Below, one piece after another: positions 2,077-60,646 of a DNA stretch of 60,646 nucleotides. The notes below the pieces were generated by a model. The model was not told the origin of the DNA. It saw only the letters and a list, made by a program, of their open reading frames with translations, and did not search any database. How positions within the stretch are numbered: the stretch's first letter is position 1; the number at the start of each line of letters is the position of its first letter. The position numbers were made by a program, and so were the translations under genes. Source of the DNA: a virus. Location of the stretch: positions 1 to 60,646 of IMG/VR virus record IMGVR_UViG_3300042563_003046, one strand, 5' to 3'.

Positions 2077-5000
2077 TTACTTGGTTTTGATCTCATCGAT
2101 AAAGATGTATCGATTGTATCTGTCACGAACTTTAATCAGTTGCTCCAGCCTATCTGTTTGTTGATTCTCGATGAGCTTTTCTGCAAAATCTTTCTCGATG
2201 TCTGGTCGATCCATGATTCCTTGGAACAGGAGTCGTGCTTTCTCTTTACCGATCCCTGCTGACTTCATCGTGTTATACTGATCTTGTGGCTTGATACCTA
2301 AGCTCTCGAACCCACGAACAACACCGAGTAGCTCTTGGTTGAGCGAGCGGCGCCCTTTGAATTCACGGTCATAGATTTCATCAATCTCCTCAGGCGACAT
2401 GGCTTGCTTGCGAAGCATAGCGTATTTCTCACGCTTAAGCTGCGAGAACCTTTCGGCGTGGTCATATAGGAAGCGGCGATGTTGCGCGACTAAGTCAATC
2501 TGATGTGTCTTCGTTGGTTTCATACCGTCGAACAGCTGCGCTAGTGGTGAGTTACGCTCGCCAACATAGTTACCATCCATAGCATTCACCGAGTTCATGA
2601 CATCCTGCACGATTCGTGGCGTATAAGTTTTCTTGAAAACATATGCCGCTTGCTTAGTCATGGCCTCGAAGACTCCATCTACTCCCTCGATATAAATATT
2701 CTGGTTCGTTGTGCTATCTTTATTTTCAATAACATCTGCAAGGTTACCAGCTAGGATTTGATCATCGAGATAAGTGCTAAAGAAGAGACCCTTAGTCAGC
2801 GCTGATGCAGCATTACCTACTTCTCCATTCTTAATATATGGCAGCGCCCTCATAAACGGATCTAATAGTAAGCTAAAGGGGTTAACATAGGTTAGGTCTA
2901 GTGAGATCAAAGCATTTTTACTATCCCTGTAGAAAAGGAACGAGTGGCCTCTGAGATACTCGGGCATCGATTTGCGTAATGCCTCATCTTCTTCATCTCT
3001 CACACCACCGAATAGCGCAGAGATTACAGCGGGTAGGGCAGCCGAGACCATTCCGAGCATTGAAGTCATTCCGCCAAGTCTCTTCATACCCCGAGCTACA
3101 AGCACTGGGTTTCCGCTATTAACTTCCTCCCACCCGAGCTTATACGTATTGAATACGATACGCGGGACTTCAGCTTTGAATCGGATGAACGGGGCGAACA
3201 TCAAACCAAAGGTTGAGTTGTTAAGAGCTTTCACAAAGTCAGGAGCTTGGCTCGCTGACTGTGCTGTCATCTTAACTTTCACAGCAGCCATACGCTTAAG
3301 GTCGTAGTCGGACATGCCAGTGAGTTTTCCTGATGGGTCGTTAGCCCTAGCCTCGATCAGAGTATCTAACTCGTGCTGGAAATACTCGATCTTGTAGGCT
3401 GCATCAATAGCACCCGAAAGTGTAGACGCTTTGTTCTCTAGCCACTCCATTCCTTTTCTTACTGTTCCAACTACTGGCAGCTCGGCCGTAAATTTATCGA
3501 GGGAGGCGAGCATACTATCTTTGCTAGCCGCACCAGATAGCAGAGCTTTTAGCATAGCTGGCTGGATCTCGTCACCGATGATGCCAAGACCAGTAAGCTC
3601 AGCCATGGCTGCGTTGATGCGATTAGGGTCTTTGAGTTGCATGTAAGAGAATACACCTGTGCGAATGGCGATTTTATCTGCCCGAATAAACCCTTGTGCG
3701 GGTGCAAAAAAGAGCAAGTTGCCCAGAGCATTCCGTAGGTAGAAGCCAACAGAACCCAACGTTTTGGCTACCATTGCCTTGCCTGTGAGATTACGGGCGA
3801 CGAGCGAGATAGCGCTTACAGCTGCCTCAGCTGTTGTAGATTGCTGAGTAACACGAGCCTCGAGCGCTGCACCGAGCGAATCAACAATGTCCTTAGGTGC
3901 ATACATGTGGGCAAGCGGATCGTTCTTAGTTGATCCACCCGAGCGCATTGGCACATAGTCTGGGTATTGGCTTGGGTTCGCTGCATACGTTTTGGCATCG
4001 ACCATGAAGCCTTGCTTAGCTCCCGTCTTAGCAAGATTGTTAAGGAAGGTTTGTTGCGCCGCCACCATAGCTACACTCGAAAACGTGCGGACAATTAGGT
4101 CAGTGCCATTCTCCGCTCCGTATTCTCCAAGCAAATCACGGAGTTCCTTGGGTAGGTCTTTCCGTCTCTTCAGGTTGTTCTTAATCTCTCTGAGACCCTT
4201 GGTTGTTTGTGGGCTAGGACTTTGTTTCTGATCATAGCTCGATAGAAATGCTTCCATAGCCTGACTACCATATGAACTACCTGCTGGTGCTTTCTGATTT
4301 GCTTTTTGTATTGCTAGATTAGCAGCGTTAGTCGCGTCGATGTCGCTCAATCCTTGGGCTTTAGCCTCGCTAAAGGACATGTTGAATAATTGCGTAGTAA
4401 AGAAAGACATAGCCGCATCACGAACAGCTTGATAGTGCGGTTCAGTCCGCACTCGCTCAGCATATGTTGGGTCATTAAACATCGCGTAGGCACGAGTAAT
4501 GTAGATACCACCCGTCTTATCAATCTTGAGCCCGATGTTTGGGTCGATACCAGCCGCGATTAGCTTTTGTTGAATAGGCTGGATGAGCTGCGTCCTCATG
4601 CTAACTATGTGCACCGCGAGGTCACTGTTGAGACTTTGGAGTTGGTTGAGCGCGGCGTCTCGTTCGATTGTTACTTGAGCAATTGCACTAGATTCTGCCG
4701 CCTCGATATCTTGATCACGCTGCTGACGGGCTGCTGCCCGCTGTGTCCGCTGATCTGCTGGGGTTAACGTCTGATCATTAGCGATACGTTCGAGCTCGGC
4801 GTTATATGCTTTCTCCATAGCCTCATATGCTGCATCGCTCACGAGGTTGCCATCGATGTAGCCCTGAGCTTTTGCGAGCAAGTCCCAATCTGCTGAGGCC
4901 TTATCTCCGTAAGTATTGATAACGAGCTTATCCATTTTCTCTTTGTATGAGATCACTAGCTGTGATGCAGCCCGTTTGAATTCTTCTCGTTGTTCAAATA

Positions 5001-16196: not shown

Positions 16197-16302
16197 AGTG
16201 GTGCTGTAATAAATTTCGCTTACACTATTAAAAACTTTCTTTTAATTCTATTGGTGCTCTAATAAATTATTACAGCACCAATACGTCATATAGAAAGTTT
16301 TT
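16197..16302. repeat. 106-bp control element, inverted copy of 49916-50021
   Basis: This sequence equals the reverse complement of 49916-50021 with about four mismatches. Inside are a GTGGTGCTGTAATAAAT motif and an imperfect 33-bp palindrome (16249-16281) made of two facing copies of ATTGGTGCT(C/G)TAATAA. It lies between the terL stop and the promoter of the 218-residue gene. Likely a shared binding site for a regulator or replication protein; also a possible substrate for inversion of the intervening 33.6 kb. Confidence 0.75.
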
Positions 16303-16331
16303 ATTCCCTACAAAGAGGAGCTGACCAAGAT

Positions 16332-20589: not shown

Positions 20590-21888
20590 ATGAAGACATT
20601 ATATCCAAAGCAACAAGAAGCGCACGACTTTTTTGTATCGTGCCTAACTAAGAACGTTAACACACTAGACTCATCAGATGTAGGAACAGGTAAGACAATT
20701 GTCGCCTGCCACATTGCGAAGACCTTGGGCAAACCATTCTTCGTCATGTGCCCTAAAGCGGTCATACCATCTTGGGAACGTGAAGCAGCAGCCTGTGGGC
20801 TTAAACCGCTGTTTGTCATGAACTACGAGAAACTACGAACTGGAAAAACTCCATGGCTAACAAAGCGTGGTAAGAAAATATTCAACTGGAAGTTACCAGA
20901 AGGAGCTATCGGGTTCATCGACGAGTGCCATAAAGCAGGAAACCCGTATACGCAGAATGCGCAGATGGTAATCGCTCTACACAAAGAAGATTTCCGTATT
21001 CACTTGATGTCAGCTACATCAGCTAATGATCCAACGGAGATGCGAGCAATCGGATACGCCTTAGGTTTGCATTCTCTCAATGAAGCGCAAGCGCCACTTA
21101 AAAGTTGGTATCGATGGATGATGGATTATGGCTGTGTGCAAAATACATGGGGTGCGTGGGAGCTGCGTAAGAAGAACAAGCTATCCCTTTTGCATGATCA
21201 AATTTATAACCGTAATGCGAAGAGGCTTACCGTAGCTGACTTCCCTGATTCATTTCGTAAGAATAGGATCTTTGTGGAGAACATTCAGTTTTCTAATCTC
21301 AGCAAGATTCACGCGGCATACAAGAGTCTTAATATTACACCAGAAATCATCGAGCGATACATTGAGCTAGGCACAGTAGAAGATAGCGAGCACACTCTCG
21401 TGAACCTGTTACGAGCTCGACAGTTGGCTGAGTCTTTTAAAGTAAATGATATTGCTGAAATGGTCGATGAGTTATTGTTAGAAGAGGCCAGCGTGGTTGT
21501 CTTCATGAACTTCCGTGAAACAGCAGAAGCATTAGCACTAACCCTAAGGTGCGAGAAGATCGTTGGTGGACAATCGGCAGCTGATAGACAGCGGATCATT
21601 GATGACTTCCAGTCGGATAAAACGCATGTGCTCGTTGTTAATATTGCAGCAGGTGGCACTGGCATTAGCTTGCACGATCTGAACGGTGATAGACCACGTG
21701 TATCTCTGATATGTCCTACGTTTAATGACAAGGACTACATGCAGGCACTCGGACGCATTCACCGCAACGGAGCAAAAAGTGATGCCGTGCAAAAGATTTT
21801 AGTTGCCAATGGGACGGTTGAGGAAGTAGTTATCAAATCCATCCAGAACAAGATCGCAAATCATGACATGCTCCATGGAACAAAATAA
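20590..21888 (+). CDS. SNF2-type SF2 helicase/ATPase
   Basis: 432 residues with helicase motifs in order: Walker A VGTGKT (31-36), motif II FIDECH (about 112-117), motif III MSATSA, then the second RecA-like domain with VVVFMNFRETAEAL, NIAAGGTGISLHDL (motif V) and QALGRIHRNG (motif VI). SNF2-type phage helicases move on double-stranded DNA and are placed in replication, recombination or origin melting. Compact, without accessory domains. Preceded by an A-rich leader without a Shine-Dalgarno motif and followed directly by the attC-like cassette array. Confidence 0.88.
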   Translation: MKTLYPKQQEAHDFFVSCLTKNVNTLDSSDVGTGKTIVACHIAKTLGKPFFVMCPKAVIPSWEREAAACGLKPLFVMNYEKLRTGKTPWLTKRGKKIFNWKLPEGAIGFIDECHKAGNPYTQNAQMVIALHKEDFRIHLMSATSANDPTEMRAIGYALGLHSLNEAQAPLKSWYRWMMDYGCVQNTWGAWELRKKNKLSLLHDQIYNRNAKRLTVADFPDSFRKNRIFVENIQFSNLSKIHAAYKSLNITPEIIERYIELGTVEDSEHTLVNLLRARQLAESFKVNDIAEMVDELLLEEASVVVFMNFRETAEALALTLRCEKIVGGQSAADRQRIIDDFQSDKTHVLVVNIAAGGTGISLHDLNGDRPRVSLICPTFNDKDYMQALGRIHRNGAKSDAVQKILVANGTVEEVVIKSIQNKIANHDMLHGTK

Positions 21889-21892
21889 ATTT

Positions 21893-22198
21893 ATGAATAC
21901 AAAACAAACTAACCCGCTGGCAGCGGTTGCTCCAGCCACGCCTTGTTCGGCTGCTTGCCCTAAGTGTGGCAGTCTGAACATCCACCGCCATCATCGCGCC
22001 CCGAAAGAAGAGTGGTCGCGAAATATCGGGGAGAACCGCAAGAACTACGAAACGCCGTGGGTCAGCTATGTCGGATACTCCGCAAAAGCTCTCAAGGAGT
22101 GCATTACCCACCACTGCCGCTGCTGCCAGTGGAAATGGGAATCCGATTGTCTGCCGAACGATCAAAGTGAGGCACAGCCTCCAGCAACAAATCTATGA
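21893..22198 (+). CDS. Cassette ORF 1: small zinc-ribbon-like protein
   Basis: 101 residues from ATG 21893. After an N-terminal stretch ending TPCSA come CPKCG and, 40 residues later, CITHHCRCC, which together look like a zinc ribbon. First ORF of an array of small G+C-rich genes between the helicase and 23.5 kb. Its stop overlaps the next start as ATGA inside the loop of the first full attC-like site. Function unknown. Confidence 0.65.
   Translation: MNTKQTNPLAAVAPATPCSAACPKCGSLNIHRHHRAPKEEWSRNIGENRKNYETPWVSYVGYSAKALKECITHHCRCCQWKWESDCLPNDQSEAQPPATNL
21917..21951 (+). repeat. Half attC-like site at the left edge of the cassette array
   Basis: The right arm (ending CGCCTTGTTCGGC, 21939-21951) matches the right arms of the sites at 22244, 22599 and 22902, but no pairing left arm is visible in the helicase gene. 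It would mark the boundary where the array joins the phage backbone. Confidence 0.5.
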
Positions 22199-22250
22199 AT
22201 ACACCAAAAGACTCAACGGGAGGCTGTTGTCCTCCACCGCCTTGTTCGGC
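22153..22250 (+). repeat. attC-like hairpin site 1
   Basis: Ends pair as GCCGAAC (22153) and GTTCGGC (22244). Inner arms CAGCCTCC (22175-22182) and GGAGGCTG (22219-22226) pair perfectly, and pairing continues outward (GTGAGGCA with TGTCCTCCAC) with single unpaired bases. The loop holds the ATGA stop/start overlap of ORFs 1 and 2. This is the R''-L''-loop-L'-R' plan of integron attC sites. Confidence 0.6.
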
Positions 22251-22548
22251 TTCTTTGGAGGCCGTTCAATACGCCGACTACATCCTAAACCACTACTCGC
22301 GGGATAGTCACGCTGACAAGTTGTGCCTCGCCCGTGACTTGGAGCGGCACGGGTGGTCGAGTGACTTGTTCGGCGATTTGAGTGCGGATGCGAAACAAGC
22401 GGTCGCATGGCTGTTTAGTGACCATGCCAAAAAGCTCTCAGTCATCGAGGCTCGCGCCTGCATCTTGGAAGGATGGGGAAAGCGCGTGGACGACGAACTG
22501 CGAGCTTACTTTTCGCCAAACGCCAAGGTATCAGACCGCCCATCATGA
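22195..22548 (+). CDS. Cassette ORF 2, hypothetical protein, 117 aa
   Basis: Begins MNTPKDSTGGCCPPPPCSAS; the first 18 codons are the right arm of attC-like site 1. The remainder (VQYADYILNHYSRDSH...KLCLARDLERHGWSSDLFGDL) is helical and G+C-rich. Family not recognised. Ends in an ATGA overlap inside site 2. Confidence 0.6.
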   Translation: MNTPKDSTGGCCPPPPCSASLEAVQYADYILNHYSRDSHADKLCLARDLERHGWSSDLFGDLSADAKQAVAWLFSDHAKKLSVIEARACILEGWGKRVDDELRAYFSPNAKVSDRPS

Positions 22549-22605
22549 AAACTCCCGAATCACAACAGACGCCTTTGGGCGGTTCTGATCACCGCCTTGT
22601 TCGGC
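22515..22605 (+). repeat. attC-like hairpin site 2
   Basis: Ends GCCAAAC (22515) and GTTCGGC (22599). Inner arms ATCAGACCGCCCA (22530-22542) and TGGGCGGTTCTGAT (22576-22589) pair over 13 bp with one extra base in the right arm, like the extrahelical base of attC sites. The loop contains the ATGA overlap of ORFs 2 and 3. Arm sequence differs from site 1 while pairing is kept. Confidence 0.65.
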
Positions 22606-22850
22606 GTTGCGTGACACACCACTTCGCTTGCGACTGCCGCGAGGCACTGATGGCGGAATCCATGAAGACGCAACGACGAGTGATCGACTGGCGGGATCAG
22701 AGCGATGAGGGCTTGAGACTGCGTTGCGGAGAACTGACCACGCAGGAAATCCGCACCATCAGGGCTGTGCTGACTGCTATTCTTCCGCCGAACGCCGATG
22801 TGATGGCAGCCGCCGACAATAAAACTCCAACGAAGGAAATGACTTTATGA
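22545..22850 (+). CDS. Cassette ORF 3, hypothetical protein, 101 aa
   Basis: Starts MKTPESQQTPLGG at the ATGA overlap. The segment HHFACDCREALMAE (two cysteines and a helix) resembles short conserved stretches in other small phage proteins; function unknown. Residues 1-20 are encoded by the right arm of attC-like site 2. Ends in an ATGA overlap within site 3. Confidence 0.6.
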   Translation: MKTPESQQTPLGGSDHRLVRRCVTHHFACDCREALMAESMKTQRRVIDWRDQSDEGLRLRCGELTTQEIRTIRAVLTAILPPNADVMAAADNKTPTKEMTL

Positions 22851-22908
22851 TACCAGAAACCATTGAAGAAACCACAGATGGCGGATTGCCATGCACGCCT
22901 TGTTCTCC
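22787..22908 (+). repeat. attC-like hairpin site 3
   Basis: Left end GCCGAAC (22787), right end degenerate GTTCTCC (22902). Inner arms ATGGCAGCCGCC (22803-22814) and GGCGGATTGCCAT (22880-22892) pair over 11 bp with unpaired bases. Longest loop of the series, again enclosing an ATGA overlap (ORFs 3 and 4). Confidence 0.5.
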
Positions 22909-23212
22909 GTCTTTTCGGGCTGGAGATGATGTTCGCCACCTGCCATCTGGTGAAAACTGGAAGCTCGCCACGGATGAGGAAAACGGGTGGGTGTCTCCAT
23001 GCGGATGGCCGCCTACACTAGCCGAAGCGAAAGACTGTGTGTTGCAGTTCGCCGCCGACGATAATGAGAGGATGGAGATGCTGAAAACATGGGCAGCAGA
23101 GGGGCGCGGCTACGAGCATGAGCGCGACCACCGAACCCGCACCGCTCGCCACCAGATTTCTTCCGAGAACGCTGAGGTGAGGCACGGCGCTAAGGACGCT
23201 GACCTCGACTAG
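22847..23212 (+). CDS. Cassette ORF 4, hypothetical protein, 121 aa
   Basis: MIPETIEETTDGGLPCTPCSP start; then VRHLPSGENWKLATDEENGW and a Cys/Trp-containing stretch (SPCGWPPTLAEAKDC) with the look of a small phage protein domain of unknown role. The stop TAG (23210-23212) is in the loop of attC-like site 4. Confidence 0.6.
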   Translation: MIPETIEETTDGGLPCTPCSPSFRAGDDVRHLPSGENWKLATDEENGWVSPCGWPPTLAEAKDCVLQFAADDNERMEMLKTWAAEGRGYEHERDHRTRTARHQISSENAEVRHGAKDADLD

Positions 23213-23249
23213 AAACTTTCCCGCCGTTGCCTCGACCGTCTTGTTAGCC
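23164..23249 (+). repeat. attC-like hairpin site 4
   Basis: Right end GTTAGCC (23243). Inner arms GAGGCACGGCG (23179-23189) and CGCCGTTGCCTC (23222-23233) pair over 11 bp with a single extra T in the right arm. Left end CGAGAAC is degenerate. Here the loop holds only the stop codon of ORF 4, and ORF 5 starts after the site, as in ordinary integron cassettes. Confidence 0.6.
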
Positions 23250-23288: not shown

Positions 23289-23504
23289 ATGGACAACCTA
23301 CGAAAAAACATCGAATCAGCAATTAACGCCGCCAGTGCGGAAAACGGCAGTGACACTCCCGATTTCATCTTGGCCGAATATCTCACGGACTGTCTCACTG
23401 CATATGACAAAGCGGTGGTGGCGCGTGAAAAGTGGTATGGACGGCCAGAACTCCCAAAGCCATTTCCTTCGGCTAATAGCAAAGATCAATCACCGCAAGG
23501 TTGA
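23289..23504 (+). CDS. Cassette ORF 5, hypothetical protein, 71 aa
   Basis: MDNLRKNIESAINAASAENG start, 39 nt after the right end of site 4. Acidic helical protein (DFILAEYLTDCLTAYDKAVVAREKWYGR), a pattern I have seen in small phage proteins without known role. Last ORF of the array; only a weak candidate hairpin (23471-23524, GGCTAAT to GTTCGAT) follows. Confidence 0.6.
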   Translation: MDNLRKNIESAINAASAENGSDTPDFILAEYLTDCLTAYDKAVVAREKWYGRPELPKPFPSANSKDQSPQG

Positions 23505-23742
23505 TTGCATCGATCTGTTCGATAAACGCTGACATGCCGTTTAGTATGTCACTACACTCGCGCTCATTGCATTGAGGGCATCTGAAACAGAATGAGGGGG
23601 AGCCGTACGCGGCGAACTCAATACGTCTGGATGAGCAACCTGAACAGTGGGTGCGAGTGTGGTGTGACTGAGATGGTTTAAGGTTGACGCAGATAGAGCG
23701 GGGATATGTTCTGCAACGTATCGCTGCCCGTAGATTCGTATT
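23473..23742 (-). pseudogene. Antisense zinc-ribbon reading frame without a start codon
   Basis: On the minus strand a frame opens after a TAG at 23743-23745 and runs to TAG at 23473-23475. It contains CSGC, 15 residues, then CFRCPQC, a good zinc-ribbon spacing, followed by a helical tail. No ATG, GTG or TTG precedes the cysteines, so it is probably a truncated or frameshifted gene. It fills most of the 290-bp gap between cassette ORF 5 and the gene at 23795, and its end overlaps ORF 5 by about 30 nt. Confidence 0.35.
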
Positions 23743-23794: not shown

Positions 23795-24076
23795 ATGACA
23801 ACCTTAGAACAACAATTAGAAGACGCAGGATACGATGCATCCGAGCTATTATGCATGGATGGATATAACGACTGTATTGTCGGAGTTGTAAACCGCATAG
23901 GCCAACCACCAATCATATGCTATGATACTACCAAGGTTATAGCGTCATTAGTGAATGATGGTATGACCGAAGAAGAAGCTGAAGAGTATTTTAACTTTAA
24001 CCAATTAGGAGCTTGGATCGGCGAAAACACCCCTTGCTTTTTAACACCTTTAACATTAGAACAACCATTACAATGA
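23795..24076 (+). CDS. Hypothetical acidic protein, 93 aa
   Basis: Start 23795 (MTTLEQQLEDAGYDASELL), downstream of an A-rich leader. Contains TEEEAEEYFNFNQLGAWIGENTPCFL; short proteins with this EEAxEYFxxNxxGAW pattern are common in phages and of unknown role. ATGA overlap with the nuclease gene. Confidence 0.7.
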   Translation: MTTLEQQLEDAGYDASELLCMDGYNDCIVGVVNRIGQPPIICYDTTKVIASLVNDGMTEEEAEEYFNFNQLGAWIGENTPCFLTPLTLEQPLQ

Positions 24077-49868: not shown

Positions 49869-50038
49869 CGATGTATTTACATCTCGTTGGTGCTGTAATA
49901 AATATATATTGAGAAAAAAACTTTCTATATGATGTATTGGTGCTGTAATAATTTATTAGAGCACCAATAGAATTAAAAGAAAGTTTTTAATAGTGTATAG
50001 GAAATTTATTACAGCACCACTTAAATGTAAATACATCG
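49869..50038. repeat. Large palindromic late-control element (contains 49916-50021)
   Basis: Outer arms CGATGTATTTACAT (49869-49882) and ATGTAAATACATCG (50025-50038) are exact inverted repeats. Inside are GTTGGTGCTGTAATAAAT (49886) facing ATTTATTACAGCACCAC (50004), and a central 33-bp imperfect palindrome (49936-49968). Bases 49916-50021 match the inverted copy at 16197-16302. Four copies of the GGTGCT(G/C)TAATAA motif make this a good candidate for a protein-binding array or an origin. Confidence 0.7.
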
Positions 50039-59470: not shown

Positions 59471-59826
59471 ATAAAGTATTACAACGAATATCAATAGCAG
59501 AATCACAAGGATGGAAGCATGACATATGTAATGTCGGCAAGCACGGCACGAAGATGAGTGGGTGGTGGATGCCCTGTGGTTCGTTCACTACGGACATAAA
59601 CATGCTGCCCGATTATTGCAATGACCTCAACGCGTGTGACAACTTACTCAACCACATGCAGACCCTCGGGTTTAACTGCGTGTTAGTAGCAGAGGGATGC
59701 GCACGTTGCTGCACCTTCATCAGCCAAGAGATGGACATTGAGTTCAAAGTAATCAGTGACAGCTTCGCACATTCAATCTGTGAGGCATTTCTCGAAACCC
59801 TTGGACTATGGAAGGAAGAACAATGA
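59467..59826 (+). CDS. Phage ABA-sandwich-like protein, cassette B copy 1
   Basis: 119 residues; shares MNK(V/E)(L/Q)QRI(S/A)IAE at the start, LPDY(C/L)NDLNA in the middle and ETLGLWKEEQ at the end with copies at 60218 and 403, but is the most divergent, with several added cysteines (EGCARCCTF). ATGA overlaps at both ends. Confidence 0.7.
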   Translation: MNKVLQRISIAESQGWKHDICNVGKHGTKMSGWWMPCGSFTTDINMLPDYCNDLNACDNLLNHMQTLGFNCVLVAEGCARCCTFISQEMDIEFKVISDSFAHSICEAFLETLGLWKEEQ

Positions 59827-59975
59827 ACGAGACAGAGACACCGAGGACGGACGAAATGCGTGAAGCTTACGTGAATTTCCAACACGGCAAATATACCGTC
59901 GATGTGGGAGATGTTTTTGACTTTGCCAGAAAACTTGAACGCGAACTAGCCGCCGTCACCGAGCAGCGGGACGAA
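59795..59975 (+). repeat. 181-bp direct repeat, copy 1
   Basis: Identical to 60540-60646 continued through 54-127 across the contig junction. Covers the end of a cassette B gene and the first part of a cassette A gene. Confidence 0.8.
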
Positions 59976-60221
59976 CTAGCACGACAAAATAAGCTATTCC
60001 GAAATGAAACTTTAATCTGGGTTGATTGTGATGCGGTGAGAAAAGATGAATACAACACGGTGATACAGCAGCTGGACGAGGCGCGGGAGGCGTTGAGGGA
60101 TATGCTCAGTGGGTGGCGTTACATTAGAAAGACTCACGGCGATCTTTACGGAGTCGGATGGGACAGAGCGCAAAACAAAGCTGAACAAGCCCTCCAATCC
60201 CTAACCCCGAACGAACCATGA
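59823..60221 (+). CDS. Coiled-coil small phage protein, cassette A copy 1
   Basis: 132 residues starting MNETETPRTDEM at an ATGA overlap. N-terminal half identical to copy 2; the C-terminal half (YNTVIQQLDEAREALRDMLSGWRYIRKTHGDLYG) is different. Coiled coil, unknown function. Confidence 0.7.
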   Translation: MNETETPRTDEMREAYVNFQHGKYTVDVGDVFDFARKLERELAAVTEQRDELARQNKLFRNETLIWVDCDAVRKDEYNTVIQQLDEAREALRDMLSGWRYIRKTHGDLYGVGWDRAQNKAEQALQSLTPNEP

Positions 60222-60571
60222 ACAAAGAACAACAAAGAATAGCCATCGCCGAGGCTTGCGGATGGACAGCGGAGCAGGACAGCAACGGATATTGGAGAGC
60301 CGTAAGCCACAAACACGGCAACGCCGTTGAGCTGTGGCTGAGTGAGCGGAATGTCTGGAGCGTTGGCATTCCAGATTACCTCAACGACCTGAACGCGATG
60401 CACGAGGCGGAGAAGATTTTAAACCAGCAACAAGCACGTGACTATGCTGAGCATTTAGGTCATAGCGCACAAGACGGAACATGGGCTGGCTGCCATATTT
60501 GGTATCAATCCGCCGCACAACGAGCAGAAGCGTTCCTGAAAACCCTTGGACTATGGAAGGAAGAACAATGA
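60218..60571 (+). CDS. Phage ABA-sandwich-like protein, cassette B copy 2
   Basis: 117 residues: IAEACGWTAEQDSNGYW, IPDYLNDLNAMHEAEKIL, and AQRAEAFLKTLGLWKEEQ, the clearest match to the phage ABA sandwich family. Coupled on both sides by ATGA. Confidence 0.8.
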   Translation: MNKEQQRIAIAEACGWTAEQDSNGYWRAVSHKHGNAVELWLSERNVWSVGIPDYLNDLNAMHEAEKILNQQQARDYAEHLGHSAQDGTWAGCHIWYQSAAQRAEAFLKTLGLWKEEQ

Positions 60572-60646
60572 ACGAGACAGAGACACCGAGGACGGACGAA
60601 ATGCGTGAAGCTTACGTGAATTTCCAACACGGCAAATATACCGTCG
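60540..60646 (+). repeat. 181-bp direct repeat, copy 2 (continues at base 54), including the 53-bp end overlap
   Basis: Bases 60594-60646 equal bases 1-53. The end of the contig therefore lies inside a duplicated cassette. Confidence 0.85.
60568..60646 (+). CDS. 5' part of cassette A copy 2 (continues at base 54)
   Basis: ATG 60568 at an ATGA overlap with the previous gene; first 26 codons of the protein whose remainder is at 2-406. Confidence 0.75.
   Translation, partial: MNETETPRTDEMREAYVNFQHGKYTV

Follow-up and report, generated by a model that had tools for sequence, protein, structure and literature searches.

Behind the helicase gene of a phage replication region, small open reading frames (ORFs) alternate with hairpins, which raises the question whether the locus is an array of integron cassettes and, if so, whether it was taken over from a bacterium or belongs to a cassette system used by phages themselves. 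The window analysed here is the whole 60.6-kb virus record IMGVR_UViG_3300042563_003046, positions 1 to 60,646, in which the helicase, DUF2800/PD-(D/E)XK nuclease, PolA (DNA polymerase A) and terminase genes were confirmed. The region behind the helicase is very probably an integrase-less integron cassette array (CALIN) with five cassettes, four complete attCs and one half attC, of a phage-type class whose genes are oriented opposite to the attCs.

Placement of the Array

The array lies between two genes:

20590..21888, plus strand: flanking helicase (Pfam Helicase_C), behind which the array is inserted
23797..24076, plus strand: small native gene, located directly after the helicase in L006 and L007

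The G+C content of the array amounts to 55.8% as compared to 44.6% for the helicase and 46.2% for the nuclease gene, in agreement with the original prediction that the ORFs are richer in G+C than their flanks. An integron integrase was not detected in the record (no match to TIGR02249), so the locus is not a complete integron; at least two attCs lie close together without an integrase, which, with the covariance-model matches described below, bears out the predicted integrase-free array in a phage replication region.

Elsewhere in the record, two near-identical 75-bp palindromic elements were observed at 16229-16303 and 49915-49989, one of them just downstream of the terminase gene, which might be a terminator or another regulatory repeat. 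Moreover, the genes at both record ends (59782-60646 and 1-136) match genes that lie beside the cassette array of the viral contig L058 with 78-93% DNA identity, and accessory genes near the record ends may therefore share an exchanged pool.

Identification of the attC Sites

A covariance model, R1, was trained on 20 aligned sites, all from viral contigs other than the window. Because some of these contigs had been located through proteins or sites of the window, the training set is not independent of S2 and S5; it contains no close copy of S3. R1 returned exactly four strong matches in the 60.6 kb (36.7-73.8 bits, E 3.7e-16 to 4.7e-7), as was expected of an attC model if the prediction held, and all of its matches in the window, the half-site included, lie on the minus strand only:

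21915..21951, minus strand: left border, half attC (R1 half-site 21899-21951, 18.4 bits, E 0.015)
22153..22250, minus strand: attC S2 (R1 71.1 bits, E 1.7e-15; presumed crossover on the plus strand between GCCGAA and C, 22158/22159)
22515..22605, minus strand: attC S3 (54.4 bits, E 2.1e-11; presumed crossover 22520/22521)
22787..22908, minus strand: attC S4 (36.7 bits, E 4.7e-7; presumed crossover 22792/22793)
23164..23249, minus strand: attC S5 (73.8 bits, E 3.7e-16; presumed crossover 23169/23170)

The boxes GTTCGGC at 21945, 22244 and 22599, GTTCTCC at 22902 and GTTAGCC at 23243 yield exactly the predicted right-end spacings of 299, 355, 303 and 341 bp, and all arms and ends quoted in the original prediction are present in the sequence. 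Among its hairpin sites, S2-S5 are complete attCs, but the first one (21945) is only half an attC, consisting of the outer box GCCGAAC (minus strand) and one inner arm and abutting the phage sequence ATGAATACAAAACAAACTAAC, which is likewise found in L004. An arm resembling this half-site occurs in a full attC of L075 (3438-3541). The strand originally taken for the attCs was wrong: read along the plus strand, they have the form RYYYAACG ... TTGTTNGN, a canonical attC in reverse, and comparison with bacterial arrays and phage TJE1 places them on the minus strand.

The claim that structure and not sequence is conserved was supported by the R1 training sites, in which both-side changes were counted in 41 cells as compared to 20.1 ± 3.0 in shuffles, and whose covariation score was 0.305 as compared to at most 0.084 with slid partners. 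The inner arms keep their structure while their sequence varies, with extra-helical bases on the R'' side. The outer boxes conform to RYYYAAC ... GTTRRRY in that the AAC/GTT core is paired in all sites, with 7/7 positions paired in S2, 6/7 in S3, 5/7 in S4 and 4/7 in S5. They are not strict GTTRRRY boxes, since the fourth base is a pyrimidine (R boxes GTTYGGC), and this was counted against reading the region as an attC array; the same pyrimidine is present in attC-like sites of the planctomycete contigs L040 and L043. Folding, which had been proposed as a check, supported S2 (z -3.2) and S3 (z -2.3), but by folding energy alone S4 and S5 were not significant. A search of Rfam gave no match above its thresholds. 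A scan for boxes plus stems with shuffled controls was discarded as too weak alone, small-loop palindromes elsewhere having reached equal scores.

Beyond the window, R1 recognised attC arrays in the vicinity of intI in Planctomycetota; of 289 genomes from the phylum of a Lentisphaerae MAG (Verrucomicrobiota in GTDB), 53 contained arrays. It also recovered the published attCs of phage TJE1, and in phage P12002L it gave one weak match, with the genes on the opposite strand. A pattern scan of a genome collection, using a narrow pattern, detected planctomycete attCs and no S2-type copy. As far as sequence can tell, structure, covariation and the match to attCs of bacterial integrons and published phages identify the sites as attCs.

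Gene Orientation and Reading Frame

In the window, the genes do not lie on the attC strand with an attC at their 3' end:

21893..22198, plus strand: cassette 1 ORF, 101 aa, stop overlapping the next ATG (ATGA)
22195..22548, plus strand: cassette 2 ORF, 117 aa, ATG in the S2 loop and stop in the S3 loop (ATGA)
22545..22850, plus strand: cassette 3 ORF, 101 aa, beginning with an ATG in the loop of S3 and ending in a stop that overlaps the ATG in the loop of S4
22847..23212, plus strand: cassette 4 ORF, 121 aa, ATG in the S4 loop, stop within S5
23290..23504, plus strand: cassette 5 ORF, 71 aa, with a weak R1 match at 23471-23523 (E 0.19)

The end of cassette 5, TCG GCT AAT, resembles a decayed outer box and may mark the right border of the array. 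The product of cassette 1 is Cys-rich and zinc-ribbon-like by eye, and its ORF gave no match in Pfam or PHROG; protein searches with ORF1 and ORF2 in phages and a nucleotide search against phage and plasmid collections gave none either. A relative of cassette 2 in L060 (3642-4160) differs by a 37-aa in-frame insert overlapping attC-like sequence, which looks like a fusion of two cassettes with loss or gain of the intervening site.

R1 was also used to collect bacterial arrays, and in 126 of their 141 intervals the longest ORF shared the strand of the attC, whereas in phage arrays it was opposite to the attC strand or tied in 24 of 26. Inverted ORFs reaching from loop to loop were present in 16/26 intervals of integrase-less phage arrays and in 35/68 intervals of integrase-bearing viral contigs, as compared to 0/137 in bacterial arrays. 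Median attC spacing was 466 bp in bacterial and 198 bp in phage arrays. On the plus-strand ORFs, codon positions 1, 2 and 3 showed 12, 3 and 20 differences from relatives, third positions accounting for most differences in cassette 2, and both the Mom gene of L045 (E 9.6e-40) and the VRR-NUC gene of L074 lie on the strand opposite to their attCs; codon-position bias and the strand of these two genes identify the plus-strand ORFs as the coding ones. The array gene of L045 (1828-2670, minus strand) encodes a Mom-like DNA modification (anti-restriction) protein. A flip of the Treponema type was considered and rejected, since that published exception concerns the direction of intI.

Of 36 unambiguous phage sites, 33 have the AAC of the R' box in frame as a codon of the incoming ORF (p = 4e-13 when tested against one third, an optimistic value because sites of one attC type are not fully independent, though the joined genes are unrelated). 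This frame distribution of 33:3:0 at the presumed crossover side differs from that at the other end of the site, where the ratio of 16:10:4 follows no rule. Bacterial arrays, read in the same sense, gave 30:21:22. In integrase-bearing viral contigs, inverted ORFs prevailed by 36 to 13, and the same frame was favoured (66/90 sites). The incoming ORF mostly stops inside the attC, and at many sites, in the window at 22195, 22545 and 22847, the stop overlaps the next start (ATGA), so that the attC seems to double as a translational coupler.

Exchange of Cassettes Among Phages

Comparison of helicase relatives revealed that the interval at the array position varies from 0 to 4.8 kb. In L006 and L007, whose helicase is 90% identical, the cassettes are absent; L004, with an identical helicase, is the same as the window up to AACTAAC and then diverges at the left border. 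R1 detected nothing convincing in five relatives. In the more distant phage L008 (helicase 66% identical), attC matches at 2496-2585, 3681-3811 and 4336-4427 are situated upstream of a RuvC-like gene and not behind the helicase.

The 98-nt S2-type attC was found at 87-96% identity to the window in six viral contigs (L045, L066 and L068-L071), as a half copy in L058 and at 79% identity in L073. These copies are surrounded by unrelated sequence on both sides, the homology mostly starting at site positions 1-5 and ending at 96-106. An S2-type attC also terminates a 750-aa glycosyltransferase/methyltransferase gene, to which it gives a C-terminal tail common to other genes. A close copy of S4 follows the VRR-NUC gene in L074 (2611-2732), and copies of S5 are present in L075 and L076.

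Cassette 1 recurs in L058 with 97.3% DNA identity over window positions 21936-22159, there flanked by different attC arms on both sides and located upstream of a helicase homologue instead of downstream. The shared block ends at a box on the right and within an attC arm on the left, and an integrase alone does not explain this left break. Thus, blocks that were gained, lost or moved end at boxes, with some breakpoints off the crossover, and comparison of related phages, as suggested with the original prediction, uncovered both gain or loss (cassettes absent from L006 and L007) and re-siting between other attCs (L058). Counting against the reading as an array are the lack of an integrase gene in the record, the left breakpoint in L058 and the truncated left-border attC; neither of the latter two is a clean integrase product. 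Judged from these alignments, cassettes and attCs have recombined among phages.

Integrases in Viral Contigs

An integron integrase above the curated cut-off is encoded in IMGVR_UViG_3300045911_000231 (L066/L129/L130) at L066 714-1667, 0.25 kb from an S2-type attC; its catalytic residues are present, as is the patch that characterises integron integrases. By inspection, this contig carries terminase-, portal- and tape-measure-like genes; the phrog_2 terminase profile gave no match on it. Some 30 further viral contigs encode integrases 47-60% identical to this one, and a profile search yielded 80 viral contigs with integron integrases, several of which also hold a terminase, to be read in view of the fact that IMG/VR contigs can include bacterial pieces and that the polarity of L185 is of the bacterial type. 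R1 sites were present in more than half of the integrase-bearing viral contigs searched; almost without exception they lay on the minus strand, immediately upstream of intI. The direction of intI in viral relatives is away from the attCs. Integron integrases are thus encoded by viral contigs that carry this class of attC, so there is no need to assume an integrase of the host, and the dependence on host integrases that had been proposed is not supported.

Among 388 genomes of the Lentisphaerae/Verrucomicrobiota phylum, the best integrase match was only 45% identical to the phage integrase. In one MAG of this phylum (G382), contig C38 (L121) has inverted phage-type attCs at 2919-3009 and 3985-4085 in a prophage-like stretch with DnaB-like helicase and HNH-like genes, and contig C29 has intI with an ordinary array. 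The prophage-like stretch is a possible link to a host in this phylum.

Proposed Mechanism and Alternative Explanations

We propose that the attC folds when phage DNA becomes single-stranded during replication, and that cassettes would then be exchanged between GCCGAA and C of the plus strand by an integron integrase, supplied either by the host or by a co-infecting phage that bears one. As the frame at the presumed crossover is fixed, an incoming ORF is terminated in frame by the attC that follows, and the ATGA overlap would often restart translation. With a start codon in its own attC loop and a fixed frame, any order of cassettes gives a coupled operon; cassettes lying behind one another would thus form a translationally coupled operon, presumably read from a phage promoter. 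Homologous recombination via the conserved sites may contribute, as suggested by the breakpoint in L058 and the truncated left border. With regard to origin, we mildly favour the reading that phages keep an integron system of their own, with a pool of short cassettes, inverted and frame-standardised genes and phage-encoded integrases, in which the attC would serve as recombination site, terminator and start codon.

Alternatively, the sites might be attCs by origin while the phage genes are now shuffled by homologous or microhomology recombination between linkers and not by an integrase. The identity of S2-type sites between phages over 98 nt is sufficient for phage annealases, the left border is an attC truncated at a possible microhomology, one breakpoint of the cassette common to the window and L058 falls inside an attC arm, and the window has no integrase. 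Yet linker homology does not require arms that change in sequence while their pairing is kept, the frame is locked on the integrase crossover side only, and integrase genes adjoin such arrays in viral contigs; we consider it rather unlikely that such shuffling is the whole explanation. Less likely still, and improbable in our view, is the capture of an ordinary host integron fragment without any phage-specific cassette class: here the opposite polarity of bacterial arrays, their lack of inverted loop-to-loop ORFs and their longer spacing speak against a proposal that draws on the bacterial type of the attC class, R1 recognising many Lentisphaerae/Verrucomicrobiota arrays and planctomycete arrays near intI, and the sole inverted case noticed in a bacterial MAG sits in the prophage-like stretch. 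Hairpins that serve as intergenic terminators or couple translation within a phage operon, with no relation to integrons, would fit the ATGA overlaps in the loops and the operon context; given the specific matches to an attC model including outer boxes, spacers and extra-helical bases, the recovery of published phage attCs and intI-linked arrays by the same model, and the cassette-wise gain and re-siting, we regard this as scarcely credible.

Gene capture by integrons is known from bacteria, and the handful of examples from phages has been interpreted as transferred pieces of the bacterial platforms. An inverted, frame-locked class across many viral contigs, some with an integrase, would make phages users of integrons themselves and would explain how they swap small accessory genes, including the Mom-like anti-restriction gene in one array. 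How a recombination site is kept compatible with dense, translationally coupled phage operons is thereby made a testable question.

Comparison with Known Systems

CALINs have been described in the virulent phages TJE1, P12002L and PH101, and phage-borne integrons are known too; five of six tested phage attC sites were active with IntI1, TJE1 being among the phages with active sites (Qi et al., 2023, PMC9892861). The array of the window resembles these CALINs as a cluster of attCs without an integrase in a lytic phage, and the conclusion drawn in the original prediction, that such a cluster would mean phages can capture cassettes, is accordingly not new. Contrarily, the genes of TJE1 lie on the attC strand, whereas those of the window array run against the attCs in a locked frame and have their start and stop codons in the attC loops. 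In the limited set of literature searched, this inverted, frame-locked architecture was not found. Phage CALINs are thus already known, and none of the tested bacterial integrons showed the inverted, frame-locked arrangement.

Planctomycetota and the Lentisphaerae/Verrucomicrobiota phylum have sedentary chromosomal integrons whose attCs, as recognised via R1, are of the same class as those of the window; these integrons differ from the window array in gene polarity and cassette length and have no inverted loop-to-loop ORFs. The atypical integron of the Treponema type (PMC3607928) also departs from the standard gene orientation of integrons. There, however, intI is flipped and transcribed toward attI, while in phage arrays intI, where present, has its usual direction relative to the attCs and the cassette genes are flipped. 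Finally, in the fused cassettes of class 1 integrons (PMC4670013), genes of neighbouring cassettes are joined across an attC region, as is the case here; those fusions are reported to be a rare product of attC loss, whereas the phage arrays keep complete attCs and follow the frame rule generally.
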